Below are positions 3,128 to 42,442 of a stretch of 64,000 bases of DNA, one piece after another. The stretch's first letter is position 1, and every line of letters begins with the position of its first letter. Both the position numbers and the translations under genes were made by a program. This DNA is from Pseudoduganella namucuonensis (GTDB taxonomy: Bacteria; Pseudomonadota; Gammaproteobacteria; Burkholderiales; Burkholderiaceae_D), in contig NZ_FPBO01000027.1 of NCBI RefSeq assembly GCF_900116645.1, positions 1 to 64,000 on the forward strand. Direction: 5' to 3'. The notes under the pieces were generated by a model. That model did not search any database. It was not told where the DNA came from and saw only the letters and a list, made by a program, of their open reading frames with translations.

Positions 3128-3209
3128 AGTTGATCCTAAATCTTTGAATGAACAAAACCGGACGCCATTTTTTCACAAAAATGAGCCCGGCTTCGTACAA
3201 TGAATAAAT

Positions 3210-3230: not shown

Positions 3231-3237
3231 GAATTTA

Positions 3238-3708
3238 TTAGAAGCGGAAGTGCGAGAACGCCTTGTTCGCTTCAGCCATGCGGTGGACTTCGTCGCGACG
3301 CTTCATCGCGCCGCCACGGCCTTCAGCCGCTTCCATCAGCTCACCGCCGAGGCGTTGTGGCATGGATTTTTCGCTGCGCTTGTTGGCGGCTTCACGCAGC
3401 CAGCGCATGGACAGGGCCATGCGGCGCACTGGGCGGACTTCAACCGGCACTTGGTAGTTTGCACCACCGACGCGGCGGGATTTCACTTCAACCAGCGGCT
3501 TGGCGTTGTTGATCGCGGTGGCGAACACTTCCAGCGGATCCTTGCCCGATTTGGTGGCGATGTGCTCGAAGGCACCGTAGATGATGTTTTCAGCGACCGA
3601 CTTCTTACCGGACAGCATCAGAACGTTCACGAACTTGGCGACATCGGTGTTGCCGAATTTTGGATCCGGCAGAATCTCGCGCTTGGGTACTTCACGACGA
3701 CGTGGCAT
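3238..3708 (-). CDS. rpsG: 30S ribosomal protein S7
   Basis: S7 nucleates assembly of the 30S head and contacts tRNA at the decoding and exit sites. The 156-residue product starts [19 protein letters not shown] and includes [11 protein letters not shown] and [16 protein letters not shown], both typical of S7. An in-frame ATG lies five codons upstream, but MPRRREV is the conserved start. It is the second gene of the str operon, 139 bp after rpsL. In E. coli, S7 represses translation of its own operon; whether the rpsL-rpsG gap here carries that site cannot be judged by eye. Confidence 0.98.
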
Positions 3709-3847
3709 ATCAATTCCTTTCAATCTTCAGTTGAGCTTGCGACGATATGTTTCGCAACCTCGCGGATCACCATCATAGTGGTCCACTTACTCGGCCAGTA
3801 CGACCGATTACATTCACTTAGTTAGCTGCAACCAGGCGAAACTTGTC

Positions 3848-4231
3848 TTACTTCTTGCCAGCCTTGGCACGCTTCGCGCCGTACTTCGAGCGAGCTTGCT
3901 TACGGTCTTTAACGCCCTGGGTATCCAGTGCACCGCGAACCATGTGGTAACGCACACCCGGCAAGTCTTTCACACGGCCGCCGCGCAGCAGGACCACGCT
4001 GTGCTCTTGCAGATTGTGGCCTTCGCCGCCGATGTACGAAATCACTTCGAAACCGTTGGTCAGACGCACTTTGGCGACTTTACGCAGTGCCGAGTTAGGC
4101 TTCTTAGGAGTGGTGGTGTATACGCGGGTGCATACGCCACGCTTTTGCGGGCAGTTTTCCAGTGCCGGCGATTTGCTCTTCACGCGCAGGGAAACGCGTG
4201 GGTTGCGAATCAATTGATTGATGGTTGGCAT
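3848..4231 (-). CDS. rpsL: 30S ribosomal protein S12
   Basis: S12 sits at the decoding centre and controls translational accuracy. The product (127 residues, [12 protein letters not shown] start) contains the conserved [12 protein letters not shown] loop, where K43-type changes give streptomycin resistance; the residue seen is the wild-type lysine. It also has [13 protein letters not shown]. It is the first gene of the str operon, with a clear sigma-70 promoter about 165 bp upstream and no other gene between. Confidence 0.99.
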
Positions 4232-7511: not shown

Positions 7512-7530
7512 CGGCCACACGGGAGACGAC

Positions 7531-8703: not shown

Positions 8704-9190
8704 AGACGGTGGTGCCGTCCTCGTCGGTGGCGATGCCCAGGCGGGTGAAGCCCAGCTTGCGCACCAGGCAGGTCGACGCCACGTTGGACGGCTCCACCTG
8801 CGCCAGCACTTCGCTGGCCTCGCCGCTGTCGAACGCCAGTTCCAGCAAGGCGCCGACGGCGGCGCCGCCTATGCCCTGCCGCATGCAGGCGGGCGCCACC
8901 GCGTAGCCGATCTCGACCCGGTCGCCATACGGTTCGTCCTTGAAGCCGCAGCCGCCGACGATGTAGCCGTCCGATTCGCGGACGATGTAGAAGGTGCTGC
9001 ACCAGAACGCCGGCTTGCCCTCGGCCAGCTGCCGCAGGGCCCGCTCGGCCACGAACGGGGGCGGCAGCGCGCCGTCGATGAAGCGTTCGGAGGCCGGCGC
9101 TTCCGACGCCGCGATCGCGCGCAAGTCGTCCACCGGAACCACGCGCAGGGCCACAGCCGTTTCGGATCTCGTGCTCCCGGTGGTCGACAT
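8645..9190 (-). CDS. GNAT-family N-acetyltransferase (RimJ/RimL type)
   Basis: The 181-residue product shows the GNAT fold: VGGCGFKDEP (beta4), VEIGYAVAPACMRQGIGGAA (the acetyl-CoA-binding R/Q-x-x-G-x-G/A loop) and SNVASTCLVRKLGFTRLG, the RimJ-like C-terminal motif. The N-terminal 20 residues are not conserved-looking, and the Ala-rich tail overlaps the end of the DUF1624 gene. It is a single gene between a convergent and a co-directional neighbour. The substrate (protein N-terminus or small amine) cannot be assigned. Confidence 0.85.
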   Translation of the reverse strand: MSTTGSTRSETAVALRVVPVDDLRAIAASEAPASERFIDGALPPPFVAERALRQLAEGKPAFWCSTFYIVRESDGYIVGGCGFKDEPYGDRVEIGYAVAPACMRQGIGGAAVGALLELAFDSGEASEVLAQVEPSNVASTCLVRKLGFTRLGIATDEDGTTVFRWLARRGGVAAAAAARAG

Positions 9191-27648: not shown

Positions 27649-27700
27649 GCGGGCTGAGCCCCATTTGGGGCCTGGCCCCAAATGGGGCTCAGCCCGCTTA
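27646..27700. repeat. Perfect 55-bp palindrome containing both convergent stop codons
   Basis: 27646-27672 and 27674-27700 are exact inverted 27-nt copies around a single T. The outermost TAA is the stop of the PNPOx-like gene (27646-27648), and the outermost TTA is the complement of the stop of the convergent membrane-protein gene (27698-27700). It would make a very stable hairpin in both transcripts, so it probably acts as a bidirectional 3'-end or terminator element. The central 35 bp recur at 59021-59055 with only the middle base changed. Confidence 0.9.
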
Positions 27701-29425
27701 GCGGCGCTCGCGGAACCACAGGGTGAGCATGGCGAGCGTGAAAAGCAGCGCGAAGGGCCAGGCGGGGTAGGCGGGGCCGGTCGCGGCGGCGTTTGTCGCA
27801 GCCGGCGAGCGGGCGGCGTAGGCGGCGGTGGCGTCGTGGCGCAAGGCGCGCTGCCAAGCCGGCCAGTCGTTCGCCGCGTGGACGTAGACGCGGTGAACGT
27901 TGTCACCGCTGCGCAGCGCCTGCCAGCCGGAGCGCGCCGGCCAGAACGCGGCGCACACGGCGTCCGCCTTGTCGGCGCGGGGCTGCCAGTTCACGGACGC
28001 TTGCCCTTCGATCTCCAGCGCGCCGCCCGGGCTGGCGCCCTGCGCGCAGATCTCGGTGCGCAGGCCGGCGACCGGCATGGCGGCGGGCTGCAGCCAGGCC
28101 AGCTTGCGCGCGCTGCCAATGGCGGCCTGGTCGAGCAGTCCCTGCCACCAGTGGCCCAGCGCGGCCGGGGCGGTGATGGCGTAGCGGTGCCAGTCGCCCA
28201 CGCCCAGCCACACGACGCGCCCGCCCTTCCAGTCGCGCTGCCACAGCCAGGGCTTGCCCTTGGCGTCCCGCGCCAGCACGGTCCATGGCGCGCCAGCCTG
28301 CTCCGCCGGGTTGAGCGCGGCAGGCGCCAGCGCCAGCTGGGTCGTACCGGAACCGAACTGGCGCGCGTCCTCCTTTTCGGTGGTGGCGGACTGGGGGACC
28401 AGCCGCAGCCCCAGTTCGCGCTGCCAGACGCCCGCGTCGGCTGCATTCCCGGCCAGGACGATCAAGGGGACGCCCTGCGCTGTTTGCGCCAGCAGCGCGG
28501 CGCGCGCGGGGACGGACGCGCTTTCGAACCAGGCGGCGTCGATGAAGCGCGCATGCACCTCGCTCAGGGCGGCGCGCGCGGTCTCGCTGCGCGCGAGACC
28601 CTTGCCCAGCGTGGTTTGCCAGTCGGCGATGGCGTTGCTGTCCGTGAGGAGCTGGTTCAACACCCGCGTGTCGAAGGAAGGCGCGCCGAAGCGGCCTTCG
28701 ACCTGCAACGGGATAGGCGCCTCGACTCGCAGCGGCACCGGTCCTTCCGCGATGGTTTTGCCGGCGCCGTCGAGCAGGCGCGCTTTCAGCGTGAGGGTTT
28801 CGGCCAGCGGCGGCAGCCACTGCACGGTGAGCCGCGCCGGCGCGCCGGACGGCTCCTTGCCGGATTCGGCGAGGATTTCGCCGTTCTCGGCCAGCAGTTG
28901 CAAGCGCCAGCCGGCGGCGGGCCGCGTGCGGTGCGCGGTGAGCGTGAACTGGCGGCCGAGCGGCAGCGCGCGCGGACTTTCGAGGCGCAGCAGGTCGACC
29001 TCCGGCTCGGTCCATCGCAAGGGGCGGGCTGGAAGGTCCCGCCATTGCGCAGCGTGCAGGCCGTGGCCGTCCAGGACGATGGACCGCGCGCCCGGCACGG
29101 CCAGCAGCGCGCGTGTCATGGCGTCCGGATAGCCGCGGTTCTCGGTGGCCAACGCCACTTCCCCACCCGCCGCGCCGGGACCGCGCGGCGCGGACAGCAG
29201 CGCCCACAGCGCGAGCGCCGCGACGAGGACCAGGGCGGCGTCCGGCCATTTGCGCTTGCGCGCGTACATGGCCGCGCTAAGCAGCCCGGCCAGCAGGCCA
29301 GCGAAAAGCACCACCACGGGTAGGCCCGATGCGGGCAGGCCCCACGATGCCAGGGCCGATCCAGCCAGGTCCAAGGCGCCAGAGCTCCGCGCGCCAAGTT
29401 CCAATACCGCGCCGCTAGCGCTCAT
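27698..29425 (-). CDS. Membrane protein at the end of the TldD/MoxR operon
   Basis: The 575-residue protein is not recognised as a named family with confidence. It has two N-terminal helices (about 30-52 and 62-82), a long soluble region, and one C-terminal helix (AYPAWPFALLFTLAMLTLWF). The soluble part looks like Ig-like beta segments followed by a region (VPLIVLAGNAADAGVW..) that may be glutamine-amidotransferase-like. This layout resembles the large membrane proteins found with BatA/vWA modules. It overlaps the DUF4175 gene by 4 bp (ATGA) and is the last gene of the ten-gene operon. Its stop codon forms the end of the 55-bp palindrome. Confidence 0.6.
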   Translation of the reverse strand: MSASGAVLELGARSSGALDLAGSALASWGLPASGLPVVVLFAGLLAGLLSAAMYARKRKWPDAALVLVAALALWALLSAPRGPGAAGGEVALATENRGYPDAMTRALLAVPGARSIVLDGHGLHAAQWRDLPARPLRWTEPEVDLLRLESPRALPLGRQFTLTAHRTRPAAGWRLQLLAENGEILAESGKEPSGAPARLTVQWLPPLAETLTLKARLLDGAGKTIAEGPVPLRVEAPIPLQVEGRFGAPSFDTRVLNQLLTDSNAIADWQTTLGKGLARSETARAALSEVHARFIDAAWFESASVPARAALLAQTAQGVPLIVLAGNAADAGVWQRELGLRLVPQSATTEKEDARQFGSGTTQLALAPAALNPAEQAGAPWTVLARDAKGKPWLWQRDWKGGRVVWLGVGDWHRYAITAPAALGHWWQGLLDQAAIGSARKLAWLQPAAMPVAGLRTEICAQGASPGGALEIEGQASVNWQPRADKADAVCAAFWPARSGWQALRSGDNVHRVYVHAANDWPAWQRALRHDATAAYAARSPAATNAAATGPAYPAWPFALLFTLAMLTLWFRERR

Positions 29426-31509
29426 GGCTGCTCCTTGCCGCGCCAGGCCTGGCCGAATTTCGTGTCCGACCGCGGCCGGGCCTGCAGCACCACCGGCACC
29501 TCGGTGAGCGTGCCGCGCAGCCAGGCGCGCAGCTCGTCGCGGCAGGCGTGGCAGCCGTCGGCCACGTCCTGCACGGCGCGCTGGGCGGCCAGCTTCTGTT
29601 CATCGTTGGCGATGCGGGCGGCGATGACGTCGCGCGCGGTCTTGCTCCACAGCGCGGGCAAGACGCCCCCAGCGCCCAGCGACTGCACCAGTTCGCGCAC
29701 GTCTTGCGGTATCACGTCGTTGGCGGCGCCCTGCGCGCGCTTGTAGCTTTGCGCGCCCACCACGTCGCCGCTCATGCGCTTTTCCTCCTTGATCGCCGGC
29801 GGCACGAAGGCGGTGCGGTGCAGGTAAACGCGCTCGGCTTGCTGCAGTTCCTTGATGGCGGCCAGCGCCTTGTATTCCGGCGGCAGCGCGGGCTTCGGCG
29901 CGATGGCGCGCAACTGCTTCTCCGCCTCCCACATGGCTTTCAGCGCACGGCGCAGCACTTCCTTGGTCTGCGGGTCGAAGATCGTGGCGTTGTCCGCCTC
30001 GTCGTGGGCGTGGCCGAACCGCTGCAGCACATTGTCCATTTTGCCGAAGCCGCCCGGCGCCGGGGCCGAACCGCCGTGGTCGTGGCTATCGCCGGGGCCG
30101 TGCTCGTCGTCGCCGAAGAGCGTGGATTCCTCGCCCAGGAACTGGCCGTAGCGCAGCCTTAGCTTGGCCTGGTCGCCGGCGATGGCCTCGCTGCGGGCCC
30201 GGAGTGCGGCCGGGCCGAGCTTGGGCATGTCCGCCACCAGTTGTTCGGTGTCGATGATGATCTGGCGCTGGCTGCGCAGGTTCTCCGGCTTGACCAGGGT
30301 GGGCAGCGCGGTGGCGTCCAGGCTTTCGGCCTGCGGGCCGGGCAGGCGCAGCGTGTAGGTCGGCGATTGCACTGTATGGGGGTGCTCGGGCGCGTTGTCG
30401 GTGGCGCGCACGAAGAAATAGAGTTCGTCGCCCGGCTCCATGCCCAGCTCCTCCAGCGACCAGTTCTTTTGCCATTGGCGGCCGCGCGGGTCGTTCGATT
30501 GCGGCAGCGGCATTTCCTTGTCGCTGAAGCGGATGTTTTCCCCGCTGCCGCGCGCGAGTGTCATGTGCAGGCTGGCGCGGACGATGCCGTAGTCGTCGCG
30601 CGTGGAAACCGAAAGCTGCACGTTCTTCGCGCCGGCGGCCAGCAGGTGGATCGCTTCCTTGGGCGCGGCGATGGCGACCCGCGGCGGCTGGTCCGGCGTG
30701 ACGAGGATGTTGTGGCGCGCGGTGGGCAGATGGCGGGCTCGCCAGAACACGGACTCGGTGGCCTTCCAGGCGGCGCACTCCCGCGCCACCGGCAGCGACT
30801 GGCCGTCGCTCAGCTCGACCGCGGACGCGGGTTCCCCCGGGCGCGCGAAGCACCAGCGGACGTCGCTGTACTGCGGGATCTGGATGTCCTTGGCGGCGGT
30901 CTCGAACGCGGCCGCCTTCGTGTATGCGGGCGGGGTGACGCGCAGGGTCAATTCGCCTGGCGCCGCCGGCCTGGCGGCCGCCGAAGCGCTCGACGCCGCC
31001 GGCTTCGGCGCCGCCACCTGTTGCAAGGCCCAGGCGGCGCCCGCCGCCAACAGGCTGAGGATGAGGGGCAGGACGCGCCATCGCACGCGGGTGCGGGCGA
31101 TGGCGCGGTAGCCGTCGTCGTTCAGCACGTCGAGCAGGCGGGCTTGCAAGCGTTTGCGCTGCAGCCGCGCGATGGCGGAGGCGGGTTCGCTGGCGAGCAG
31201 CTCGCTGCTGTCCTCCAGCGCCGGGAAGGCGGCGTCCAGCCAGCGGGGCCACTCGACGGCCAGGCGGCGGCGCAGCGCGCGCAGGTCGAGTATGAGCCAG
31301 ATCAGACCAACGCCCAGCAGGAAGAGTGGGATCGCGAATGGCGGCAGGCCGGCGGCGCCTTGGGAGGCGGTGCGCGGGCCCGCCACGGTGAGCGCACACA
31401 CCAGCAGCGGCGGCAGCAGCACGAGCGCCCACAGCGGCGCGCGGCGCAGCAGGAACGCGCGCCAAAGACGGCGCTGGACGGTGGCGCGGAAATCAGCGTC
31501 GACGGACAT
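29422..31509 (-). CDS. DUF4175-like membrane protein
   Basis: The 695-residue protein has N-terminal hydrophobic segments (about 18-45 and 58-75) and another near 150-168. A periplasmic region with beta-sandwich-like repeats follows (TLRVTPPAYTKA; KNVQLSVSTRDDYGIVRASLHMT), then an alpha-helical, charged C-terminal half with a His-rich patch (GDDEHGPGDSHDHGGSAP). This is the DUF4175 layout seen next to MoxR/DUF58/BatA genes. It starts 17 bp inside the BatA-like gene and overlaps the next gene by 4 bp, indicating translational coupling. The biochemical role is unknown; the His cluster could bind metal. Confidence 0.7.
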   Translation of the reverse strand: MSVDADFRATVQRRLWRAFLLRRAPLWALVLLPPLLVCALTVAGPRTASQGAAGLPPFAIPLFLLGVGLIWLILDLRALRRRLAVEWPRWLDAAFPALEDSSELLASEPASAIARLQRKRLQARLLDVLNDDGYRAIARTRVRWRVLPLILSLLAAGAAWALQQVAAPKPAASSASAAARPAAPGELTLRVTPPAYTKAAAFETAAKDIQIPQYSDVRWCFARPGEPASAVELSDGQSLPVARECAAWKATESVFWRARHLPTARHNILVTPDQPPRVAIAAPKEAIHLLAAGAKNVQLSVSTRDDYGIVRASLHMTLARGSGENIRFSDKEMPLPQSNDPRGRQWQKNWSLEELGMEPGDELYFFVRATDNAPEHPHTVQSPTYTLRLPGPQAESLDATALPTLVKPENLRSQRQIIIDTEQLVADMPKLGPAALRARSEAIAGDQAKLRLRYGQFLGEESTLFGDDEHGPGDSHDHGGSAPAPGGFGKMDNVLQRFGHAHDEADNATIFDPQTKEVLRRALKAMWEAEKQLRAIAPKPALPPEYKALAAIKELQQAERVYLHRTAFVPPAIKEEKRMSGDVVGAQSYKRAQGAANDVIPQDVRELVQSLGAGGVLPALWSKTARDVIAARIANDEQKLAAQRAVQDVADGCHACRDELRAWLRGTLTEVPVVLQARPRSDTKFGQAWRGKEQP

Positions 31510-32563
31510 GGCTTAGCAGACGTTCAAGGACAAACAATGCCAGCAGCGCGTGGGCGAGCCAGGCGGCGGGGGTGGTGTCCGGCATCGCCAGCGGCGCGCC
31601 GCGGCCGGCGGGCAGCGACAGCGCGGGCATGGCGTAGGGTTGCGCGGGGTACGCGAGCGCTTGCCAGGTTTCGTAGAGCGCGCGGGCGGAATCGGCATCC
31701 GCGGGCGGCCAGTTTGACGAGGCCCACAAGCGGCCGCGCGGGCTGTCGGCGATTTGCAGGGCCACGCCGTTGATGCTGAGCGCTTGCGCCGGGGCCCGGG
31801 TCGCGGCGGGCATCAGCGGCAGGGCATCCGGGGGCAGCCACCATAGCGGCGCGCGCCAGTCGGCCGGTGGCGCCGCGGCGCGGTCCCAGACGATCAGCTC
31901 GGTCTTCGCGGTTGGCGCGTCGGCCAGGATGTAGCGGCTGTTGCCGGTGCCGGCGGCGTCGAAGGCGGCGAACAGCGCGCGCCAGGCGGCCAGGCGCTCC
32001 CGGGGAGCCGACAGCGCGATGTGGCGCTCCTTGATGGGCGATTCCGCTGAGGGAAGCGTGGACGCGGGCGGAATTCGGATATCGACGGCATGGGCGAATT
32101 GTGGGATCCGCGCGGGCATGGGCAGCGACGCGGCCAGTATCAGCACGCGCGCGCCGGAACGCCATTCGTGTTCGTTTGCCTGCAGCCAGGCGAGCGCGCC
32201 AGCGGGCAACGGCGTGCGCCGCGCATCCTGGAAGCCAGCGGCCGCGATCTGCCGCTCGATCCAGGCGGCGCTTGCCGGTGGCGTGGTGAGCGCGGGATCA
32301 ATCAACACGGTGTCGGCGCGCCAGGGGATGGTGGTGACGGCCAGCCACGCGATCAGCGCCACCAGCAGCAGGCAGCGCACGGCAAGCAGCGCCACGTCTT
32401 CCCAGCGCCAGATGCGTAGTTGCCGGGGCGGCGCGGCGGGCAGGAAGCGCGCGGTGGCCAGCGGCTCGGCCTTCACGCGCTGGCGCTTCTGGCGGTGCCA
32501 CCATATCGGCAGCAACAGAACCGGCAGCGCGAGCCACCACAATGCCTGTGCGCTGGCGATCAT
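31493..32563 (-). CDS. BatA N-terminal-domain membrane protein
   Basis: The 356-residue protein begins MIASAQALWWLALPVLLLPIWWHRQKRQR, the typical BatA N-terminal helix followed by a basic stretch. A second helix follows (VALLAVRCLLLVALIAWLAV, about 57-76), then a DxxLxDP-type degenerate vWA region, and a C-terminal helix (AAWLAHALLALFVLERLLS). The vWA metal site (DxSxS) is not intact. BatA-like proteins work with MoxR ATPases in envelope stress functions in several bacteria. The ATG overlaps the DUF58 stop (ATGA), and the end overlaps DUF4175 by 17 bp. Confidence 0.78.
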   Translation of the reverse strand: MIASAQALWWLALPVLLLPIWWHRQKRQRVKAEPLATARFLPAAPPRQLRIWRWEDVALLAVRCLLLVALIAWLAVTTIPWRADTVLIDPALTTPPASAAWIERQIAAAGFQDARRTPLPAGALAWLQANEHEWRSGARVLILAASLPMPARIPQFAHAVDIRIPPASTLPSAESPIKERHIALSAPRERLAAWRALFAAFDAAGTGNSRYILADAPTAKTELIVWDRAAAPPADWRAPLWWLPPDALPLMPAATRAPAQALSINGVALQIADSPRGRLWASSNWPPADADSARALYETWQALAYPAQPYAMPALSLPAGRGAPLAMPDTTPAAWLAHALLALFVLERLLSHVRRR

Positions 32564-33450
32564 GGCCGCCTCGCCGATGCCAGTTGCAGCCAGCCGCGCA
32601 GCGCCGCTGCAGGTGCCTGCTCGATGCGGGCCTCGTAGTACGGAAAGTCGCGCTGGCGGCAGTCGGTGGACACTTGCGCGAAGTGCGCCGCCAACGCCGC
32701 GCGGTAGGCTTCGCGGTCCGCGCCTTGCAGGCGGTGCAAGCCCGCTCCCGCTTCCGGATCCCGATAGCCGGAGCCGGCGCGGAAACTGGCGTCCACCTCG
32801 GCCTGCGTGCGCAAGGACATCAGGCGCACGTCGTGCCGCATGCCGCGCAGCCGCATCAGCGCTTCGCTCAGCGGCGATGGCCAGTCGAGGAAGTCGCTGG
32901 CGGCGAACACCAGGCTTTGCGCGCGGGCGAAATGCAGGCAGGATTTGAGCGCGTCCGCGTCCGGCAGCACGCCCTCGGGCCGGGCCTTCGACAGCGCGGC
33001 CAGCACGCGCCGCAACTGGCGCGGCCCGCGCGAGGCGGGTGTGAACTCGGCCCTGCCGCCGGTGCAGACGATCAGCCCGAAGGCGTCGCCCTGGCGCTGC
33101 GCGATGGCCGCCATGCAGGCCAGCATGGTGCGCGCGTACCAGAGCTTGTCGATGCCGGGCATGTCGTGGCTGCGCTCGGCCATGGACGCGGTGGCGTCCA
33201 GCCACAGCCAGACGGCGACGTGGCTGTCGCGCTCCGCCTCGCGCACGTAGTAGCGGTCGGCGCGCGCCAGCAACTTCCAGTCCACCCGGCGCCATTCGTC
33301 GCCGGGGGCATAGGCGCGGTACTCGGAGAACTCCACGCCGGCGCCGCGTTCGCGGCCCGCGTGGATGCCATGGCCCAGCCCCGCCAGCACGTGGCGGATC
33401 ACAAGGTCCAGGTCCGAGGTGTGCGCCAGCAGCGCGGGTGTTTCAAGCAT
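32560..33450 (-). CDS. DUF58 protein with vWA-like domain
   Basis: The 296-residue soluble protein contains the DUF58 core YAPGDEWRRVDWKLLARADRYYVREAERD (about 48-77), followed directly by a vWA-like strand with LWLDATASM, a DxTxS version of the MIDAS metal site. DUF58 proteins are almost always encoded next to MoxR ATPases and are thought to be their substrates or adaptors. Here the MoxR gene ends 13 bp upstream, and the BatA-like gene overlaps the stop by 4 bp. Confidence 0.88.
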   Translation of the reverse strand: MLETPALLAHTSDLDLVIRHVLAGLGHGIHAGRERGAGVEFSEYRAYAPGDEWRRVDWKLLARADRYYVREAERDSHVAVWLWLDATASMAERSHDMPGIDKLWYARTMLACMAAIAQRQGDAFGLIVCTGGRAEFTPASRGPRQLRRVLAALSKARPEGVLPDADALKSCLHFARAQSLVFAASDFLDWPSPLSEALMRLRGMRHDVRLMSLRTQAEVDASFRAGSGYRDPEAGAGLHRLQGADREAYRAALAAHFAQVSTDCRQRDFPYYEARIEQAPAAALRGWLQLASARRP

Positions 33451-33463: not shown

Positions 33464-34468
33464 TCAGTCCGGGCGCACGTCGTTGCGCAGCGCGGCGAGG
33501 ATGTCGGCGACGGCGATGCCGTCCGCTTCCGCCTCGAAGTTGCGCAGCACGCGGTGTGCCAGCACCGGCAGCAGCATGGCGACGATGTCCTCGCGCGTGA
33601 CGGCGAGGCGGTTGTGCATCAGCGCGCGCGCCTTGGCCGCCAGCACCAGCGCCTGGCCGGCGCGCGGACCGGCGCCCCAGCCGACGTGCTTTTGCACGGC
33701 GGCGACACTGCTCTCCTTCGGCCGCGTGGCGCGCACCAGGCGGGTCGCGTACACCAGCAGGTGCTGGCCGATCTCGATGTCGCGCACCAGCTGCTGCAGG
33801 CGCAGCAGGGTCGCCACGTCCATCACCGGCTCGGCGTCGGCCAGCCCGGCGTGGGTGGTGGCGGACACCATGGCCACCTCCTCCGCCTCGGTCGGATAGC
33901 CGACGTCGATGCGCAGCAGGAAGCGGTCCAGCTGCGCCTCCGGCAGCGGGTAGGTGCCGGCCTGCTCGATGGGATTCTGCGTGGCCAGCACGAAGAAGGG
34001 ACGCGGCAGCCTGTGCGTCTGGCCGGCGAAGGTCACGCAGCGTTCCTGCATGGCCTCCAGCAACGCGGACTGGGTCTTGGGCGGCGCGCGGTTGATCTCG
34101 TCCGCCAGCAGCACCTGGGTGAACACGGGGCCCCGCTGGAAGCGGAATTCCCGCTTGCCGGTGGCGTGGTCCTCCTCCAGGATCTCGGTGCCGACGATAT
34201 CGGAAGGCATCAGGTCCGGCGTGAACTGCACGCGGCGGAACTCCATCGCCGTGGCCTGCGACAGCGACTTGACCAGCAGCGTCTTGCCCAGCCCCGGCAC
34301 GCCCTCCACCAGCGCGTGGCCGCCGCCCAGCAGGCAGATGATGAGCGAGTCGATCACGTCCCGCTGGCCGACGATCACCTTCGACATGCTGGCCTTCAGG
34401 GCCGCCACCTTGGCGCCCAGCGCGCCGATTTCGTTCTCGTCCCAGGACGAGGAATCATGCAAAGACAC
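33464..34468 (-). CDS. MoxR-family AAA+ ATPase
   Basis: The 334-residue ATPase has VIVGQRDVIDSLIICLLGGGHALVEGVPGLGKT (Walker A), LLADEINRAPPKTQSALLEAMQE (Walker B) and FFVLATQNPIEQAGTYPLPEAQLDRF (sensor 1/arginine finger); all are canonical MoxR. MoxR proteins act as chaperone-like AAA+ machines, maturing or inserting cofactors with vWA partners. The GTG at 34468 is chosen because GGGAG lies 7 nt upstream and DUF4159 ends two bases earlier (TGA-CC-GTG); an upstream in-frame ATG (34561) would run far into DUF4159. It is central to the operon and is followed by DUF58. Confidence 0.93.
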   Translation of the reverse strand: MSLHDSSSWDENEIGALGAKVAALKASMSKVIVGQRDVIDSLIICLLGGGHALVEGVPGLGKTLLVKSLSQATAMEFRRVQFTPDLMPSDIVGTEILEEDHATGKREFRFQRGPVFTQVLLADEINRAPPKTQSALLEAMQERCVTFAGQTHRLPRPFFVLATQNPIEQAGTYPLPEAQLDRFLLRIDVGYPTEAEEVAMVSATTHAGLADAEPVMDVATLLRLQQLVRDIEIGQHLLVYATRLVRATRPKESSVAAVQKHVGWGAGPRAGQALVLAAKARALMHNRLAVTREDIVAMLLPVLAHRVLRNFEAEADGIAVADILAALRNDVRPD

Positions 34469-34470
34469 GG

Positions 34471-35091
34471 TCAAGCTCCCAATGCGTACTGAATAATGTT
34501 GACTGCGAAGCGGGTGTTGTCGATGGCCAGCCAGCGCTTGTTGCGGAAGTCGTAGTCCCACTCGCAGCCATAGTCCTTGTTGCTGTACAGGACCCGCACC
34601 CGGCCGTTGAATTCGATGGCCTTCAGGTAGTCGTGCACCAGGTCGTCGCCCCAGCCGTTCAACTCCACGCTGGTGTTGGGCGGGCCGTCGAACTTGAAGA
34701 AGCTCGAATAGACCGGGTGGTTGTTCGGGATCTTGTTCAGCGCGCGCTTGCCGAAGATCCTCGCCATCTCGGCCTCGAACGATTTCGCGAACAGGCCGTC
34801 GATGTCGTGGTTGCAGTCGTCCACGAAGACGAAACCGCCGCCCCGCACGTAGCGCTCGAAGTTCTTGCGCTCGGCGGGGGTGAACTGCACCAGCTTGTGG
34901 CCGGCGAAGTAGCAGAACGGCGCCTCCAGCATCTTCGCGTCGGACAGCGCCACGATGCGCTCCACCGGGTCCACCCGCAGTGTGGTGTACTCGACCAGGG
35001 AGTTGAGCACGTTGCTGGGCATGCGGACGTCCACGTCCCAGTCGCCGGACTCGTAGGTCAGGCGGGTGAAGTAGAAGTCGTGGCTAGGCAT
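34471..35091 (-). CDS. DUF4159 protein
   Basis: The 206-residue protein is a stand-alone DUF4159 domain: FYFTRLTYESGDWDVDVRMP at the start, then APFCYFAGHKLVQFTPAERKNFERYVRGGGFVFVDDCNHD, the glutamine-amidotransferase-like core. The C-terminus is WDYDFRNKRWLAIDNTRFAVNIIQYALGA. DUF4159 is usually found in membrane proteins of the MoxR/BatA group; here it is separate and has no signal peptide or helix. It follows PmbA-like 2 after 102 bp, which hold a 66-nt repeat, and is coupled to MoxR by a 2-bp gap. The function is unknown. Confidence 0.82.
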   Translation of the reverse strand: MPSHDFYFTRLTYESGDWDVDVRMPSNVLNSLVEYTTLRVDPVERIVALSDAKMLEAPFCYFAGHKLVQFTPAERKNFERYVRGGGFVFVDDCNHDIDGLFAKSFEAEMARIFGKRALNKIPNNHPVYSSFFKFDGPPNTSVELNGWGDDLVHDYLKAIEFNGRVRVLYSNKDYGCEWDYDFRNKRWLAIDNTRFAVNIIQYALGA

Positions 35092-35193: not shown

Positions 35194-36531
35194 TCATACC
35201 GCATCCGACAGCGACGTGAAGTTGAAGTCGCGGATCTTCATCGCCGGCAGCAGCATCTGGAAGCGCGAGCCGACGCCGCCCACCACCACCGGCTTGCCCA
35301 GTTCCTCGATGTTGTTCAGCATGGACACCGGGCTTTCGTTGAAGCGGAAGTTCTTGATCGGATGCTTGATCTTGCCGTTCTCGATGTAGAAGGTGCCGTC
35401 GCGCGTCAATCCGGTCAGCGCCACCGATTGCGGGTCCACCATGCGGATGTACCAGAGGCGCGTGACCAGCACGCCCTTCTTGGTGCCGGCGATCAGTTCC
35501 TCCGTGCTCTTGCTGCCGCCAGCCATGATGATGTTGCCGTGCTGCGCGGTGGCGCGCTTGCCGTTCTTCCCGGCCCAGAAACGCGAGTAGTCCAGCGTGG
35601 ACACGACGCCGTTCTTGATGATGTCGGTGCGCTCGCGCGCCTGCATGGTGGCGCCGTCCCAGGGCAGCACCGGCACGTCCGGGTTCCACGGGTCGGCCCA
35701 CACGTTCACCTGCTCGTCGTACAGCTTGTCGCCCAGGCGGTTGGCGCCGCCCTTCTTGGACAGGAAGCTGCGACCCTCGTCGGCGCGGCGCGCGTCGAAG
35801 GCGTTGAACATGAAGTTCAGCATGTCCGACGTGGCCGCCGGCTCCAGGATCACCGTGTAGCGGCCCGGCTCCATGGCCTTCGCGTCCACCGATCGCACCG
35901 CCTTCTCGATCGCCACGTTGGACGCCTCGCGCGCGTCGAACCGGCCCGCGTCGTTGGCGTAGCGGGTGGCCCAGCCCGAACCCCGGCCGTCCTCCGTGCG
36001 CGCGGTGATGGTGAAGCCCAGGTTGCTCAGTTCCTGGTAGCCGAACAGGCCATTGGAGTTGGCCAGCGCCTCGAAGCCGGTGGTGTCGTTGAAGAAGCCG
36101 GCCGCCTGCAGCTTGGCCTTGCGCGCCGCGTCTATGCTCTGGAACGCCACCTCGGCGCGGTACTCGGGATCGATGTCGGCCGTGCGCTTGCTCCAGGTGG
36201 GCGTGGCCTTGTACTGCTGCGGCTTGATCGCCGGCAGGAACTCCGGATTCTCCGGCGCCAGGCGCGCCACGTCCTCGGCGCGGCGCACGGCCTTTTCCAG
36301 CGACTTGTCGTCGAACTCGTTGATCGACGCCGCGCCCACGCGCTTGCCGAAGGCGACCGTCACGCTCAGCTGCGTGTTCTCTGTGAGGCCGGCGGTGGAG
36401 ACGGCGTTGTTGGCGTAGCGGATATTGCCCGAGCGGCTGCCGCTCAGGCCCACCTCGCACTGGTCCGCCTTCGAGTAGGCGATCACCTTGTCGCAAACGC
36501 GCTTCGCTTCTTCCTGGTTCAGAAATTTCAT
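35194..36531 (-). CDS. PmbA/TldE-like protein 2
   Basis: PmbA (TldE) is the non-catalytic partner of TldD in a heterodimeric zinc protease that trims peptides such as microcin B17 and CcdA. The 445-residue protein starts MKFLNQEEAKRVCDKVIAY and carries the family pattern TEDGRGSGWA, MEPGRYTVILEP and GTFYIENGKIKHP, with no HExxxH motif. There is no signal peptide. It is highly similar to PmbA-like 1, without gaps over most of the length; a 46-nt tract (35363-35408) is identical to 38441-38486. The start is 13 bp after TldD-like 2. If TldD-like 2 is exported by Tat, this partner would need co-export or would act in the cytoplasm. Confidence 0.88.
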   Translation of the reverse strand: MKFLNQEEAKRVCDKVIAYSKADQCEVGLSGSRSGNIRYANNAVSTAGLTENTQLSVTVAFGKRVGAASINEFDDKSLEKAVRRAEDVARLAPENPEFLPAIKPQQYKATPTWSKRTADIDPEYRAEVAFQSIDAARKAKLQAAGFFNDTTGFEALANSNGLFGYQELSNLGFTITARTEDGRGSGWATRYANDAGRFDAREASNVAIEKAVRSVDAKAMEPGRYTVILEPAATSDMLNFMFNAFDARRADEGRSFLSKKGGANRLGDKLYDEQVNVWADPWNPDVPVLPWDGATMQARERTDIIKNGVVSTLDYSRFWAGKNGKRATAQHGNIIMAGGSKSTEELIAGTKKGVLVTRLWYIRMVDPQSVALTGLTRDGTFYIENGKIKHPIKNFRFNESPVSMLNNIEELGKPVVVGGVGSRFQMLLPAMKIRDFNFTSLSDAV

Positions 36532-36544
36532 CTGGCGCTGCTCC

Positions 36545-38182
36545 TCAGCCGATCTTGCGGGCGGTGTTGATGACGTTCACGCCGTTGAAGCGCGTGGTGC
36601 TCGATCCGTGCGACACGGCGCTCACCTGCGGCGGCTGGCCCTTGCCGTCGAAGAAGGAGCCGCCCATGCGCCAGTCGCGCTCGTCGCACATGGCGGCGCA
36701 GGCGTTCCAGAATTCCTGGGTGTTGGACTGGTAGGCCACGTCTTCCACCTGGTTGACGATCTTGCCGTTCCTGATCTCGTAGAACAGCTGGCCGCCGAAC
36801 TGGAAGTTGTAGCGCTGCTGGTCGATGGAGAAGGAGCCGCGTCCCAGGATGTAGATGCCCTTCTTCACGTCGGCCACCATCTCGTCCGGCGTCATCTTCC
36901 TCTTGCCAGCCGCGAGGGACACGTTGGGCATGCGCTGGAACTGCACGCTGCTCCAGCTGTCGGCGTACGAGCAGCCGTGCGATTCCTTCTCGCCGATCAC
37001 GTGGGCCTGGTCGCGCGTGGTCTGGTAGTTCACCAGCACGCCGTCCTTGATGATGTCCCAGCGCTTGGCCTTCACGCCCTCGTCGTCGTAGCCGACCGCG
37101 CCCAGCGAGCCGATGGCGGTGCGGTCGGCCACGAAGTTGACGATGTCGGCGCCGTACTTGAATTTCTTCGATTCCCACTTGTCCAGCGTGGCGAAGCTGG
37201 TGCCGGCGTAGTTGGCCTCGTAGCCCAGCACGCGGTCCAGTTCCGTGGCGTGGCCGACGGATTCGTGGATGGTGAGGAACAGGTGCTCGGGGCTGAGCAC
37301 CAGGTCGTACTTGCCCGGCTCGATGGATTTCGCGGTCAGCTTCTCGCGTGCCTGGCGGCCGGCGGCGCGGGCGTCCTCGATCAGGTCGTAGCCGTTCTTG
37401 TACAGCTGGGTCACGCCGCCGGCGGCGCGCACCTTGTTCCCGGCCTTCGCGTCGAAGAACTCGTAACCCATGCCGGCCGGCGACGACAGGCCGTCGCGGG
37501 TGCGGAACTTGCCGGTGGCCTTGTCCACGGCGGTGGCGGTGAACGGGGACCACAGGCGGTGCACGTCCTGGTCGATGTAGGAGCCGTCGGTGGAGGCGAA
37601 GTACTTCTGCTGGTTCACCTGGAACAGCATGGACTGCATGAAGCTCGCGCCGGCGTCCATGCCGGCCTTGTTGGCGGCGATCAGCATCTCGGCCTTGTCC
37701 TTGATGGGCACCGTGCGCCAGTCCTTGATGTACGGCGTGGACCAGGCCACCTCGCCCACGCCCTTCACCGGCGCCAGGCGCACGGGTTCGGTCTGCAGGC
37801 GGGCGTTGGCCTTGGCGATGGCGACCGCCTGGCGCGCGGCGTCGGCCACGGAGTCCAGGGTCATCACGTTGGTGGAGACGAAGCCGTAGGCGCCGCCGGC
37901 GATCACGCGCACGCCGACGCCGCTCGATTCGGTGTTGACGATGTTTTCGACGTTCAGGTCGCGGGTGGTGATGAACTGGTTCAGGTAGCGGCCGACGCGC
38001 ACGTCGCAATAGCTCGCGCCGGCCTTGGTGGCGGCGTTCATCGCGGCGTCCGCCAGCGATTTCTTGAACTGCACGGCCATGGGGTTGAGCAGCTCCTCGG
38101 CCGCGATGGCGTTGCCGAACACCGGCACCAGCATGGCGCCGCCGGACAGCGCGCCCACTTTCAGAAATGTACGTCGTTCCAC
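36545..38182 (-). CDS. TldD-like zinc metallopeptidase 2 with Tat signal
   Basis: The 545-residue protein opens with MERRTFLKVGALSGGAMLV and ends the signal at about A27 (NAIAAEE). RRTFLK fits the twin-arginine motif well. The catalytic HESVGH (306-311) is followed by ATELDRVLGYEANYAGTS, and the C-terminal MCDERDWRMGGSFFDGKG supplies the third ligand Cys expected from E. coli TldD. The start is GTG at 38182, with AGGAG 5 nt upstream; the frame stays open further upstream, but that region is non-coding repeat. It aligns without gaps to TldD-like 1. E. coli TldD (481 aa) has no signal, so periplasmic targeting is the notable feature. Confidence 0.9.
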   Translation of the reverse strand: MERRTFLKVGALSGGAMLVPVFGNAIAAEELLNPMAVQFKKSLADAAMNAATKAGASYCDVRVGRYLNQFITTRDLNVENIVNTESSGVGVRVIAGGAYGFVSTNVMTLDSVADAARQAVAIAKANARLQTEPVRLAPVKGVGEVAWSTPYIKDWRTVPIKDKAEMLIAANKAGMDAGASFMQSMLFQVNQQKYFASTDGSYIDQDVHRLWSPFTATAVDKATGKFRTRDGLSSPAGMGYEFFDAKAGNKVRAAGGVTQLYKNGYDLIEDARAAGRQAREKLTAKSIEPGKYDLVLSPEHLFLTIHESVGHATELDRVLGYEANYAGTSFATLDKWESKKFKYGADIVNFVADRTAIGSLGAVGYDDEGVKAKRWDIIKDGVLVNYQTTRDQAHVIGEKESHGCSYADSWSSVQFQRMPNVSLAAGKRKMTPDEMVADVKKGIYILGRGSFSIDQQRYNFQFGGQLFYEIRNGKIVNQVEDVAYQSNTQEFWNACAAMCDERDWRMGGSFFDGKGQPPQVSAVSHGSSTTRFNGVNVINTARKIG

Positions 38183-38227
38183 ATCTACTCCTGGTTCAAG
38201 TTTAGTACAAAACCCACCGCAAGGGCT

Positions 38228-38255
38228 GGGGTCAGACCCCCAGGGGTCTGACCCC
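38228..38255. repeat. Tandem inverted GGGGTCAGACCCC element
   Basis: GGGGTCAGACCCC (38228-38240) and its exact inverse GGGGTCTGACCCC (38243-38255) are separated by two bases. The element lies in the 89-bp gap between PmbA-like 1 and TldD-like 2 within the operon. Its GTC-AGACCC core resembles the ends of the 66-nt repeats. Confidence 0.75.
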
Positions 38256-38271
38256 CGACTTCGCCTTCGGG

Positions 38272-39609
38272 TTACACCGCGTCCGACAGCGAGGTGAAGT
38301 TGAAGTCCCGCACCTTCATCGCGGGGATCAGCATCTGGAACGGCGACTCGTCGCCGCCCAGGATCTCGGGCTTGCCGATCTCGTCGATGTTGTTGAGCAT
38401 GGTGACCGGGCTTTCGTTGAAGCGGAAGTTCTTCACCGGGTGCTTGATCTTGCCGTTCTCGATGTAGAAGGTGCCGTCGCGCGTCAGGCCGGTCAGCAGC
38501 ACGGTTTGCGGGTCCACCATGCGGATGTACCAGGTGCGGGTGATCAGCACGCCCTTCTTGGTTTTGGCGATCAGCTCCTGCGTGGACTTGTTGGTGCCCG
38601 CCATGATGAAGTTGCCCGGCGCGCCAACGGCGCGCTTGCCCTGCTTCCGCGCCCAGAAGCGCGAGTAGTCCATCGCCGCGACCTTGCCGCTCTTGATGAT
38701 GTCCATGCGCTCGCGCGCCAGCATGGTGTTGGTGTCCCACGGCGTGACGGCGATGTCCTTGTCCCACGGGTCGGACCAGATGTTGACCTGCTCGTCGAAC
38801 AGCTTCTCGCCCAGGCGGTTGCCGCCGCCCTTCTTCGACAGGAAGCTGCGGCCCTCGTCCGCGCTGCGCGCGTCGAAGCCGTTGAACATGTAGGCCAGCA
38901 GGTCGGAGGTGGCGGCCGGCTCCAGGATCACCGTGTAGCGGCCAGGCTCCAGCGCCTTGGCGTCCACCGAGCGCAGCGCCTTCTCGATCGCCACGTCGGA
39001 GGCCTCGCGCGCGTCGAACCTGGCGACGTCGCCCGCGTCGCGCCGCACCCAGCCCGATCCGCGGCCGTCCTCGGTGCGCACGGTGCAGGTGAAGTTCAGG
39101 CCCGTGTTCTCCTGGTGGCCGAACACGCCCTTGGAGTTGGCGATGGCCTCGAACGCGGTGCTGTCGGTGAAGAAGCCGGCGGCCACCAGCTTGTTCTTGC
39201 GGCTGTTCTCGATGCTGTAGGCGGCCACCTGGGCGCGGAAGTCGGGATCGATGGCGGCGGTGCTCTTGCTGTAGGTGTCGCTGGCCTTGTACTCCTGCTT
39301 CGAGACGGTGGACATGAACTCCGGGTTTTCCGGCGCCAGGCGCGCCAGGTCCTCGGCGCGGCGCACGGCCTTTTCCAGCGACTTGTCGTCGAACTCGTTG
39401 ACGGTGGCGGTGCCCTGCTTCTTGCCGTAGGCGACAGACACGGACAGCTGCGTGTCCTCGACCAGGCCGGCGGTGGAGACGGCGTTGCGCGCGTAGCGGA
39501 TATTGCCCGTGCGGTTGCCGGTCAGCTTGACCTCGCATTCGTCGGCCTTGGTCAGGGACAGCACCTTGTCGGTGATGCGCTTCGCTTCTTCCTGATTCAG
39601 AAATTTCAT
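38272..39609 (-). CDS. PmbA/TldE-like protein 1
   Basis: The 445-residue partner protein starts MKFLNQEEAKRITDKVLSL and shows the same PmbA pattern as copy 2 (VRTEDGRGSGWVRR; LEPGRYTVILEPAATSDLL; TFYIENGKIKHPVKNFRF). It lacks HExxxH, as expected for the TldE subunit, and has no signal peptide. It starts 16 bp after TldD-like 1, so each TldD is paired with its own PmbA. Near-identical stretches with copy 2 suggest tandem duplication of the pair with later gene conversion. E. coli TldD and TldE form a heterodimer, so four subunit combinations are possible here. Confidence 0.88.
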   Translation of the reverse strand: MKFLNQEEAKRITDKVLSLTKADECEVKLTGNRTGNIRYARNAVSTAGLVEDTQLSVSVAYGKKQGTATVNEFDDKSLEKAVRRAEDLARLAPENPEFMSTVSKQEYKASDTYSKSTAAIDPDFRAQVAAYSIENSRKNKLVAAGFFTDSTAFEAIANSKGVFGHQENTGLNFTCTVRTEDGRGSGWVRRDAGDVARFDAREASDVAIEKALRSVDAKALEPGRYTVILEPAATSDLLAYMFNGFDARSADEGRSFLSKKGGGNRLGEKLFDEQVNIWSDPWDKDIAVTPWDTNTMLARERMDIIKSGKVAAMDYSRFWARKQGKRAVGAPGNFIMAGTNKSTQELIAKTKKGVLITRTWYIRMVDPQTVLLTGLTRDGTFYIENGKIKHPVKNFRFNESPVTMLNNIDEIGKPEILGGDESPFQMLIPAMKVRDFNFTSLSDAV

Positions 39610-39625
39610 GTTCTAGTCCTTAGCC

Positions 39626-41263
39626 TTAGCCGATCTTGCGGGCGGTGTTGATCACGTTGATGCCGTTGAAGCGCGTGGTGCTGGCGCCGTGCGACACGAT
39701 GCTGACCTGCGAAGGCTGGCCCTTGCCGTCGAAGAAGGAGCCTCCCATGCGCCAGTCGCGCTCGTCGCACAGGGCGGAGCAGGCGTTCCAGAACTCCTGG
39801 GTGTTGGACTGGTAGGCCACGTCCTCCAGCGGCTGGGTGATCTTGCCGTCCTTGATCTCGTAGAACAGCTGGCCCCCGAACTGGAAGTTGTAGCGCTGCT
39901 GGTCGATGGAGAAGGAGCCGTCGCCGACGATGTAAATGCCCTTCTTGACGTCCTTGATCATCTGGTCCGGCGTGAGCCGCTTCGTGCCGGCCTTGAGCGA
40001 CACGTTGGGCATGCGCTGGAACTGCACGCTGCTCCAGCTGTCCGCGTAGGAGCAGCCGTGCGACTCCTTCTCGCCGATGATGTGGGCCTGGTCGCGCGTG
40101 GCCTGGTAGTTCACCAGCACGCCGTCCTTGATGATGTCCCAGCTCTTGCAGCGCACGCCCTCGTCGTCGTAGCCGACCGCGCCCAGCGAACCGGCGGCGG
40201 TCTTGTCGGCGACGATGTTGACCATGTCGGCGCCGTACTTGAATTTCCTCGACTTCCATTTGTCCAGCGTGGCGAAGCTGGTGCCGGCGAAGTTGGCCTC
40301 GTAGCCCAGCACGCGGTCCAGCTCCGTCGGGTGGCCGACCGACTCGTGGATGGTCAGCCACAGGTGCTCGGGGCTGAGCACCAGGTCGTACTTGCCCGGC
40401 TCGACGGATTTCGCCGTCAGCTTGGCCTTGGCCTGCTGGCCGGCCGCGCGCGCGTCCTCCACCAGGTCGTAGGACTTGCGGTACAGCGTGGTCACGCCGC
40501 CGGCGGCCTTGAACTTGTCCTCGGCGCGGCCGTCCAGGTATTCATAGCCCATGCCGACCGGCGTGGACAGGCCGGAACGGGAGCGGAACTTGCCGCTGGT
40601 CTTGTCGACGGCGGTGGCGAAGAAGGGCATCCACAGGCGGTGCAGGTCCTGGTCGATGTAGGAGCCGTCGGTGGAGGCGAAGTACTTCTGCTGGTTCACC
40701 TGGAACAGCAGCGATTGCATGAAGCTGGCGCCGCCGTCCAGGCCGGCCTTGTTGCCGGCGATGAGCAGCTCGGCCTTTTCCTTGATGGGCACCGTGCGCC
40801 AGTCCTTGGTGTAGGGCGTGGCCCAGGCCACCTCGCCCACGCCCTTCAGCGCGGCCAGTTGCACCGGTTCGGTCTGCAGCCTGGCGTTGGCCTTGGCGAT
40901 GGCGACCGCCTGGCGCGCGGCGCCGGCCACGCCGTCCGGCGACATGTCGTTGGTGGCGGCGAAGCCGTAGGCGCCGCCCGCGATCACGCGCACGCCGACG
41001 CCGGCCGATTCAGTGTTGGTGACGTTCTCGATGTTCAGGTCCCGGGTGGTCAGGAACTGGTTCAGGTAGCGGCCGATGCGCACGTCGCAGTAGCTGGCGC
41101 CGGCCTGGGTGGCGGCGGTCATGGCCGTGTCGGCCAGCATCTTCTTGAACTTCACGTCGACCGGCTTGAGCAGCTCTTCGGCCGCGATGGCGTGGCCGAA
41201 CGGGGGCAGCAGCATTGTGCCCAAGGCAAAACCGCTAATGTTGAGAAATGCGCGTCGTTCCAT
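39626..41263 (-). CDS. TldD-like zinc metallopeptidase 1 with Tat signal
   Basis: This is the first gene of the ten-gene operon. The 545-residue product begins MERRAFLNISGFALGTMLLP and has an AxA cleavage site near 25-27 (HAIAAEE); RRAFLN fits a twin-arginine signal. The zinc site is HESVGH (306-311), with Cys 495/499 in ACSALCDERDWRMGGSFF as the likely third ligand. The core GGAYGFAATNDMSPD and GLSTPVGMGYEYLDG are TldD-like. A sigma-54 promoter with a CGGACA enhancer cluster lies 110-225 bp upstream. Export of folded metalloenzymes is the usual reason for Tat use, which fits a metal-loaded peptidase. Confidence 0.9.
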   Translation of the reverse strand: MERRAFLNISGFALGTMLLPPFGHAIAAEELLKPVDVKFKKMLADTAMTAATQAGASYCDVRIGRYLNQFLTTRDLNIENVTNTESAGVGVRVIAGGAYGFAATNDMSPDGVAGAARQAVAIAKANARLQTEPVQLAALKGVGEVAWATPYTKDWRTVPIKEKAELLIAGNKAGLDGGASFMQSLLFQVNQQKYFASTDGSYIDQDLHRLWMPFFATAVDKTSGKFRSRSGLSTPVGMGYEYLDGRAEDKFKAAGGVTTLYRKSYDLVEDARAAGQQAKAKLTAKSVEPGKYDLVLSPEHLWLTIHESVGHPTELDRVLGYEANFAGTSFATLDKWKSRKFKYGADMVNIVADKTAAGSLGAVGYDDEGVRCKSWDIIKDGVLVNYQATRDQAHIIGEKESHGCSYADSWSSVQFQRMPNVSLKAGTKRLTPDQMIKDVKKGIYIVGDGSFSIDQQRYNFQFGGQLFYEIKDGKITQPLEDVAYQSNTQEFWNACSALCDERDWRMGGSFFDGKGQPSQVSIVSHGASTTRFNGINVINTARKIG

Positions 41264-41635: not shown

Positions 41636-42442
41636 ATGAAACGACTGTTACTGGCCGCCGCCATCGTGTGCGGCGTGGCCGGCCCGGCGCTGGCGGACGA
41701 CGCCCTGAAGGCGGCCATCGCCAGCGGCACCCGCACGCCCGCCAACGTGGAGCGCGACGCGCAGCGCCATCCGTATGAAACGCTGACCTTCTTCGGCATC
41801 AAGCCCACCATGACGGTGGTGGAACTGTCGCCGGGCGGCGGCTGGTACACCGAGATCCTGGCGCCATACCTGCGCGACAAGGGCAAGCTGATCGCCGCCG
41901 GCGCCACGCCCGGCTCGGCCAGCGAGAACGTGCGCAAGGGCGCCGCGCGCTTCCAGGAGAAGCTCGACGCCGTGCCGGCCGCCTACGGCAAGGTGCAGCT
42001 GGGCGCCTTCGAACCGGGCAACGGCGTGTACAACTACGCGCCCAAGGGCACGGCCGACATGGTGCTCACCTTCCGCAACGTCCACAACTGGATCGGCACC
42101 GGCGACGCCAACATGAAGGCGCTGTTCGCCAGCGTGTACGACGCGCTGAAACCGGGCGGCGTGTTCGGCGTGGTGGACCACCGCCTGCCGGCCTCGGTGA
42201 AGCAGGACGAGAAGGCCAGCAGCGGCTACGTGCACGAGGCCTACGTGATCAAGCTGGCGGAGAACGCGGGCTTCAAGCTGGCCGGCAAATCGGAGGTGAA
42301 CGCCAACCCCAGGGACAAGGCCGACCACGAGGGCGGCGTGTGGGCGCTGCCGCCAACCTACGGCAACAAGGACAAGGACCGCGCGAAATACGCCGCCATC
42401 GGCGAGAGCGACCGCATGACGCTGAAGTTCGTGAAACCTTAA
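41636..42442 (+). CDS. SAM-dependent methyltransferase-like protein with signal peptide (COG4798 type)
   Basis: The 268-residue protein has a clear Sec signal (MKRLLLAAAIVCGVAGPALA, cleavage near 20). A class I methyltransferase fold follows: TVVELSPGGGWYTEILAPYL (SAM loop), GTADMVLTFRNVHNW and ALKPGGVFGVVDHR. COG4798 proteins often carry such signals, though SAM is not known to be available in the periplasm, so either it is a non-canonical enzyme or the fold has another use. AAGGAG precedes the ATG at 41636. It is divergent from the TldD operon and shares the intergenic region with the enhancer cluster. Substrate unknown. Confidence 0.82.
   Translation: MKRLLLAAAIVCGVAGPALADDALKAAIASGTRTPANVERDAQRHPYETLTFFGIKPTMTVVELSPGGGWYTEILAPYLRDKGKLIAAGATPGSASENVRKGAARFQEKLDAVPAAYGKVQLGAFEPGNGVYNYAPKGTADMVLTFRNVHNWIGTGDANMKALFASVYDALKPGGVFGVVDHRLPASVKQDEKASSGYVHEAYVIKLAENAGFKLAGKSEVNANPRDKADHEGGVWALPPTYGNKDKDRAKYAAIGESDRMTLKFVKP

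Follow-up and report, generated by a model that had tools for sequence, protein, structure and literature searches.

The 64,000-nucleotide stretch of Pseudoduganella namucuonensis DNA analyzed here (contig NZ_FPBO01000027.1, positions 1 to 64,000; hereafter, the window) comes from a genome of 8.5 Mb and carries two tandem pairs of genes for TldD/PmbA-type peptidases, in which the TldD subunits begin with a putative signal for the twin-arginine translocation (Tat) pathway. TldD/PmbA is otherwise known for maturing antibiotic peptides in the cytosol, as a peptidase. The two pairs, proposed in a preliminary description of this DNA, were found to be genuine, as four genes lie on the minus strand in the order TldD1-PmbA1-TldD2-PmbA2 and all three PmbA/TldD Pfam domains were detected above cut-off in each of the four proteins. 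TldD1 and TldD2 are 81% identical. Further family members, a canonical TldD (contig C35) and a canonical PmbA (contig C54), are encoded elsewhere in the genome, and the four window proteins fall well short of the equivalog cut-offs for TldD and PmbA. The genes and their putative signals are listed below.

39626..41263, minus strand: TldD1, 545 amino acids (aa), ATG start; residues 1-28 are a putative Tat signal (MERRAFLN...AIAA); HESVGH at residues 306-311; third metal-ligand column occupied by Asp512.
41180..41263, minus strand: putative Tat signal of TldD1; all 172 relatives scored share its Arg-Arg; the Tat hidden Markov models (HMMs) do not list it.
38272..39609, minus strand: PmbA1, 445 aa, without a signal.
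36545..38182, minus strand: TldD2, 545 aa, GTG start preceded by AGGAG; HESVGH; Asp in the ligand column; residues 1-28 are a putative Tat signal (MERRTFLK...AIAA).
38099..38182, minus strand: putative Tat signal of TldD2, which TIGR01409 and PF10518 match below their thresholds.
35194..36531, minus strand: PmbA2, 445 aa, without a signal.

TldD1 begins with MERRAFLNISGFALGTMLLPPFGHAIAAEE and TldD2 with MERRTFLKVGALSGGAMLVPVFGNAIAAEE. The preliminary description had read both N-termini as ERR(T/A)FL(K/N) followed by a hydrophobic stretch and an AxA site, and this anatomy was recovered: both proteins start with MERRxFL, or more fully ERR(A/T)FL(N/K), and continue through a hydrophobic stretch to AIA. 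E. coli TldD aligns with TldD1 only from residue 27 onward, so the N-terminal segment is extra. Its conservation was determined in 172 operon TldDs, of which 160 came from 80 genome-contig loci and 12 from loci L131-L138. The 80 loci were the best 80 of 445 confirmed ones and belonged mostly to Oxalobacteraceae, with one Pelomonas and some metagenome-assembled genomes. A self-written rule for a twin-arginine followed by a hydrophobic stretch, which is TATFIND-like, was passed by 172/172 operon TldDs, compared with 0/164 PmbAs and 35/8600 shuffled TldD N-termini. The N-terminal signal of the TldDs is beyond chance, and no PmbA with a signal was seen among the 164, in line with the preliminary description.

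Residues 3-4 are Arg-Arg in all 172 operon TldDs, with Phe at residue 6 in 171 of them and Leu at residue 7 in 170. An AxA site follows the hydrophobic stretch in 162 and is absent from the scanned range in the other 10. The survey of TldD homologues for the arginine pair that had been proposed at the outset also covered seven additional TldDs (L166, L168-L170), and the pair was present in 7/7. The TldD starts were picked by a score favouring the aligned position; a start codon was found at that position in 172/172 sequences (124 ATG, 42 GTG, and 6 TTG). When 20 members from different families and classes were aligned, M1, R3, R4, and P20 were the only invariant positions within the first 30 residues. 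Across several families and at least two classes, the arginine pair is constant in an N-terminal segment that otherwise varies. Moreover, TatC is encoded in the host genome. As judged from these sequences, TldD is likely to be exported through Tat.

The metal site was examined in the same proteins. HESVGH is kept in both window TldDs, as previously described, and HExxxH was found in 172/172 operon TldDs; no HExxxH was found among the PmbAs inspected in loci of other families. According to the available part of the E. coli study, the third metal ligand of TldD is Cys454, located within a CGK motif (PMC5810440). The preliminary description had stated that this C-terminal ligand Cys is kept, which proved to be incorrect. 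When TldD1 and TldD2 were aligned with relatives and with the canonical TldD of the same genome, both had Asp512, within FFDGKGQ, in the ligand column. Cys495 and Cys499, the probable source of the earlier statement, both fall outside the ligand column; Cys495 is invariant in operon rows, and Cys499 is variable. The replacement of CGK by DGK was consistent, as [ST]FFDGKGQ was present in 172/172 operon TldDs and FFDGKGQ in 7/7 more, giving Asp in 179/179. In a 56-row alignment, Asp was found in 39/39 operon TldDs (window included) versus Cys in 17/17 non-operon TldDs. Asp in place of the ligand Cys is known from Gemmatimonas, where it is described as more thermolysin-like (PMC5810440, in the part available). 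The active site of the window TldDs would therefore consist of HExxxH with Asp, not Cys, as the third ligand.

Some individual loci deserve mention at this point. The operons L137, L138, L168, and L169 have two TldDs and one PmbA, and in each of them one TldD carries Ala for Cys499 and retains Cys495. A sister TldD in L171 (genome G815, approximately 1509-4112, minus strand) has a KRRSFL Tat-like signal together with the ligand Cys, and a single-sequence search detected no DUF4159 gene on its 10.7-kb contig. Judging from L171, TldD export may be older than the change to Asp. In L166 (genome G685), a lone signal-bearing TldD at 7352-8989 lies on the opposite strand to the adjoining complete operon, and no PmbA was detected beside it.

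The TldD/PmbA genes head an operon, with genes for DUF4159, MoxR, DUF58, BatA-like, and DUF4175 proteins and a further membrane protein downstream, with intergenic gaps of no more than 102 bases or with overlaps. The preliminary description had read the pairs and their signal correctly and had overlooked this MoxR/DUF58/DUF4159 context. The downstream genes are as follows.

34471..35091, minus strand: DUF4159 protein, 206 aa, without a signal here (PF13709, E 7.4e-50).
33464..34468, minus strand: MoxR-type AAA+ ATPase (PF07726, E 4.5e-64); its GTG start was assigned by eye, 2 bases past the DUF4159 stop.
32560..33450, minus strand: DUF58 protein (PF01882, E 1.1e-33).
31493..32563, minus strand: BatA-like inner-membrane protein, 356 aa, with two N-terminal transmembrane (TM) segments by TM scan; PF07584 at 20.9 bits, below the cut-off of 25.9.
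29422..31509, minus strand: DUF4175 membrane protein, 695 aa (PF13779, E 1.4e-12).
27698..29425, minus strand: membrane protein, 575 aa, with N-terminal TM segments and a large soluble part; no Pfam match.

The operon was well conserved. TldD, PmbA, DUF4159, and MoxR were present in 80/80 loci, DUF58 and BatA in 79/80, and DUF4175 in 78/80; the loci without some of the genes, L039 and L093, are both cut by contig ends. The exact gene order was found in 66/80 loci, where order was taken from the left ends of stop-to-stop frames and a few apparent swaps are overlaps. A homologue of the 575-aa membrane protein was found in 7/80 loci, the flanks of which mostly stop short of it. Eleven loci of other families (L132-L138, L166, and L168-L170), covering at least one other class, carry TldD, PmbA, DUF4159, MoxR, DUF58, and DUF4175, with one or two TldDs each. 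Both TldD copies were detected in 28/35 same-genus genomes, no high-similarity copy was found among 24 same-order genomes, and matches at E < 1e-200 were found in 13/398 genomes across the phylum, own included; the distribution of the operon is patchy. Beyond the phylum, plasmid records were searched and one Nonomuraea record was read.

Two side observations were made next to these genes. The protein encoded by a divergent gene upstream (41636-42442, plus strand) is 268 aa long, resembles methyltransferases, and appears to have a signal peptide, MKRLLLAAAIVCGVAGPALA; its Pfam matches are below cut-off, and homologues were found in this divergent position in 65/80 loci. In the PmbA1-TldD2 gap, the palindrome GGGGTCNGACCCC occurs twice side by side (38228..38255, strand not assigned), with no further copies in the window and 0 expected. 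It may be a dispersed repeat.

Phylogenetic analysis placed the operon TldDs in a single group (support 99/98), with long branches flagged by the tool among the outer rows. The TldD1 clade, the TldD2 clade, and the matching PmbA2 clade each contain Massilia/Duganella, Undibacterium, and Pelomonas rows. Since the clades are shared by those genera, either the duplication predates the genera or the genes were transferred as a block. A recent origin of the tandem pair was rejected because Undibacterium and Pelomonas rows occur in both TldD clades.

DUF4159 was surveyed separately. It was found in 45 of 200 genomes sampled, own included. Its frames measured 207-299 aa in the six genomes with an operon TldD and at least 578 aa in the other 39, of which 38 had frames of at least 918 aa. 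Among the matches listed, operon TldD was present in none of these 39 long-frame genomes, and only G506 had any TldD match (E <= 1e-60), which lacks a signal and lies at a different place (L139). As short DUF4159 frames occurred solely in TldD genomes, the operon TldD/PmbA accompanies a stand-alone DUF4159. In the 11 loci of other families, the DUF4159 N-terminus appeared signal-like by eye in 11/11, with RR in five (L136, L137, and L168-L170) and R followed by A, K, or S in six. The structural model of DUF4159 reached a pLDDT of 60, and its best PDB match was 4i66 (Hoch_4089; E 6.9e-9), which yields no pointer to function. The topology of long DUF4159 frames was scanned for hydrophobicity only, in 8 of the 39. 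In L211, L215, and L216, DUF4159 is placed outside by a positively charged loop that separates two late TM segments, with L212 weaker; L209, L210, and L214 have a single late TM segment followed by positive charge, which alone would mean DUF4159 inside; and L213 does not fit the pattern. Across the eight frames, the scan gave a mixed picture of the side on which DUF4159 lies.

The system was then compared with known ones. The E. coli TldD/TldE (PmbA) complex (PDB 5NJ5; PMC5810440, in the part available) shares the three-domain architecture, HExxxH, and an inactive PmbA partner; unlike it, the window system has an extra Tat-like signal, Asp for Cys454, two tandem pairs, and a MoxR/DUF58/DUF4159 operon. 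In signal anatomy and its conservation, in Asp for Cys, and in operon conservation, all as read from sequence, it is a genuine and conserved form of the TldD/PmbA peptidase, hitherto uncharacterised. No account of a Tat-exported TldD was found in the open-licence literature searched. In Stenotrophomonas maltophilia, NIPOLPBK_01784-01792 are described as two TldD, MoxR, a protease, a membrane protein, and three hypotheticals (nine tags, eight genes named), with reduced expression of some genes in the biofilms of each of the seven isolates and TldD read as gyrase-related (PMC7688217). This make-up agrees with the f38 loci of the present analysis, and the cluster is probably this operon; the part of PMC7688217 that was available holds no remark on export of its TldD. 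Two X. campestris tldD genes, XC_0094 and XC_0096, are tabulated among HpaR1-affected genes in the available part of PMC6430473.

For operons of this type, a mutant with a defective envelope is known only for RL3499 of Rhizobium leguminosarum. RL3499 is a MoxR without which neither membrane integrity nor cell shape is maintained (PMC3893208), and the related RL3499-RL3502 operon affects envelope integrity (PMC3893208; also cited in PMC5700661; both available in part). A MoxR gene is common to that operon and the window operon. The original study of RL3499-RL3502 is reportedly that of Vanderlinde in 2011. This operon carries DUF58 and BatA-DUF4159 genes as well and is not known to contain TldD/PmbA. 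Similarly, Bat (Bacteroides aerotolerance) operons share MoxR, DUF58, and BatA-like genes with the window operon; unlike the latter, they are described without TldD/PmbA in the part of PMC5700661 available.

Considering these results together, we favour, with some confidence, a Tat-exported TldD that takes PmbA along as a hitchhiker in the service of an envelope operon. At least one PmbA was retained in 80/80 loci, and because it is kept and yet signal-less, hitchhiking is favoured. Tat has a size limit for cargo. In E. coli, activity needs both subunits and the heterodimer is ~65 Å wide (PMC5810440, as far as available); thus, co-export would be physically plausible. Export, hitchhiking, activity, substrate, and role are what we infer, as follows. 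Two paralogous TldD/PmbA metalloproteases would be made to work at the inner membrane, on its periplasmic side. TldD would fold and acquire its metal in the cytoplasm, where it would bind the signal-less PmbA, and the folded heterodimer would pass Tat by the twin-arginine signal of TldD, with cleavage near AIA-AE. The active site would comprise HExxxH and Asp, and doing without a thiol at the metal would be of use in an oxidising compartment. Outside, the enzyme may trim unfolded peptides from their N-termini, like E. coli TldD/E, and act with DUF4159 and the membrane proteins of the MoxR-DUF58-BatA-type operon in maintaining the envelope, a role suggested because the Rhizobium RL3499 operon affects the envelope. 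In a more ambitious form, which we regard as doubtful, the TldD signal would carry a folded complex of PmbA and, in Burkholderiales, also DUF4159, whose own signal would be confined to other lineages, yielding an Asp-liganded periplasmic "pencil sharpener" run from the opposite side of the membrane by the MoxR/DUF58 ATPase system.

Several observations weigh against export with a hitchhiking partner. TldD1 was not listed by the curated Tat HMMs TIGR01409 and PF10518, and TldD2 scored below both cut-offs, at 13 bits (cut-off 16.7) and 15.9 bits (cut-off 22.7); these short models were weak in general, matching 6/20 and 5/20 diverse members, respectively, at E <= 0.1. The periplasmic form put forward in the preliminary description is well supported by comparison, through the invariant arginines and TatC, and the Tat HMMs match it weakly. 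In a 19-residue hydrophobicity scan, neither window TldD showed a TM-like segment. Six of the 80 loci (L040, L053, L073, L099, L101, and L115) have two TldDs and one PmbA, and the operon PmbAs are not monophyletic, with L139, L146, and L171 falling among them. DUF4159 lacks a twin-arginine in the window and in 80/80 genome-contig loci, and no signal was found in its upstream frame in the 27 of the 80 loci examined; accordingly, not every partner is visibly exported. Asp is an imperfect marker of export, and its use as a strict mark was ruled out by L171, which combines a signal with Cys. Cysteine content was dropped as an indicator, given the little difference between operon proteins and relatives (TldD mean 5.2 versus 6.2; PmbA 3.0 versus 3.0). 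Finally, the AlphaFold model of TldD1 (23-row shallow alignment) reached a pLDDT of 34 and was unusable, so that Asp as the ligand rests on the alignment.

These points leave room for other explanations. The preliminary description had already raised a compartment split. In the form considered here, TldD alone would be Tat-exported as a periplasmic homodimer and PmbA would stay in the cytoplasm, either by itself or together with the canonical TldD. The lack of any signal among 164 PmbAs fits such a split, as do the TldD genes that outnumber PmbA in the six loci above and in L133, L137, L138, L168, and L169, and the active Sulfolobus TldD homodimer quoted in the available part of PMC5810440. 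We regard it as rather unlikely, as at least one PmbA accompanies TldD in each of the 80 loci, the PmbA2 clade mirrors the TldD2 clade, as expected of fixed partners, and the E. coli TldD homodimer resisted purification, activity needing both subunits (same source).

The nature of the N-terminus itself bears on two further explanations. If it served as a Sec signal or, left uncleaved, as a membrane anchor, TldD would be tethered or exported unfolded without Tat, which would explain the low Tat HMM scores and the 10 TldDs in which AxA was absent from the scanned range. Sec signals require positive charge only, and Tat signals are moderately hydrophobic. The arginine pair is invariant where mere positive charge would suffice, AxA is present in the other 162 TldDs, and the hydrophobic segment is moderate (15-residue peak mean of 1.66, no TM-like segment), as is typical of Tat and poor for an anchor; an anchor or Sec signal is hence improbable. 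The motif might also be unrelated to export, leaving a cytoplasmic TldD as a peptide-trimming helper of the MoxR ATPase. Characterised TldD/E is treated as cytosolic, MoxR and DUF58 showed no TM segment in the TM scan, and DUF4159 here has no signal, all of which would suit a helper of this kind. However, the combination of invariant arginines, hydrophobic stretch, and AxA ahead of the E. coli TldD match, together with the signal-like DUF4159 N-termini in all 11 other loci, makes this very unlikely.

The proposed export of PmbA on the TldD signal has a known counterpart in the two-subunit hydrogenases, Tat hitchhiker complexes with the signal on one subunit only. TldD/PmbA likewise carries a signal on one of two subunits; it differs in being a peptidase with no Fe-S or nickel cofactor, and its co-export is a proposal. 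If true, this peptidase heterodimer would be a new test case for Tat hitchhiking. For annotation, the gyrase-regulator label should be avoided for TldD genes within MoxR-type operons. Moreover, if the favoured interpretation is true, the exported Asp-liganded branch would supply the enzymatic output for a poorly understood type of MoxR envelope operon.

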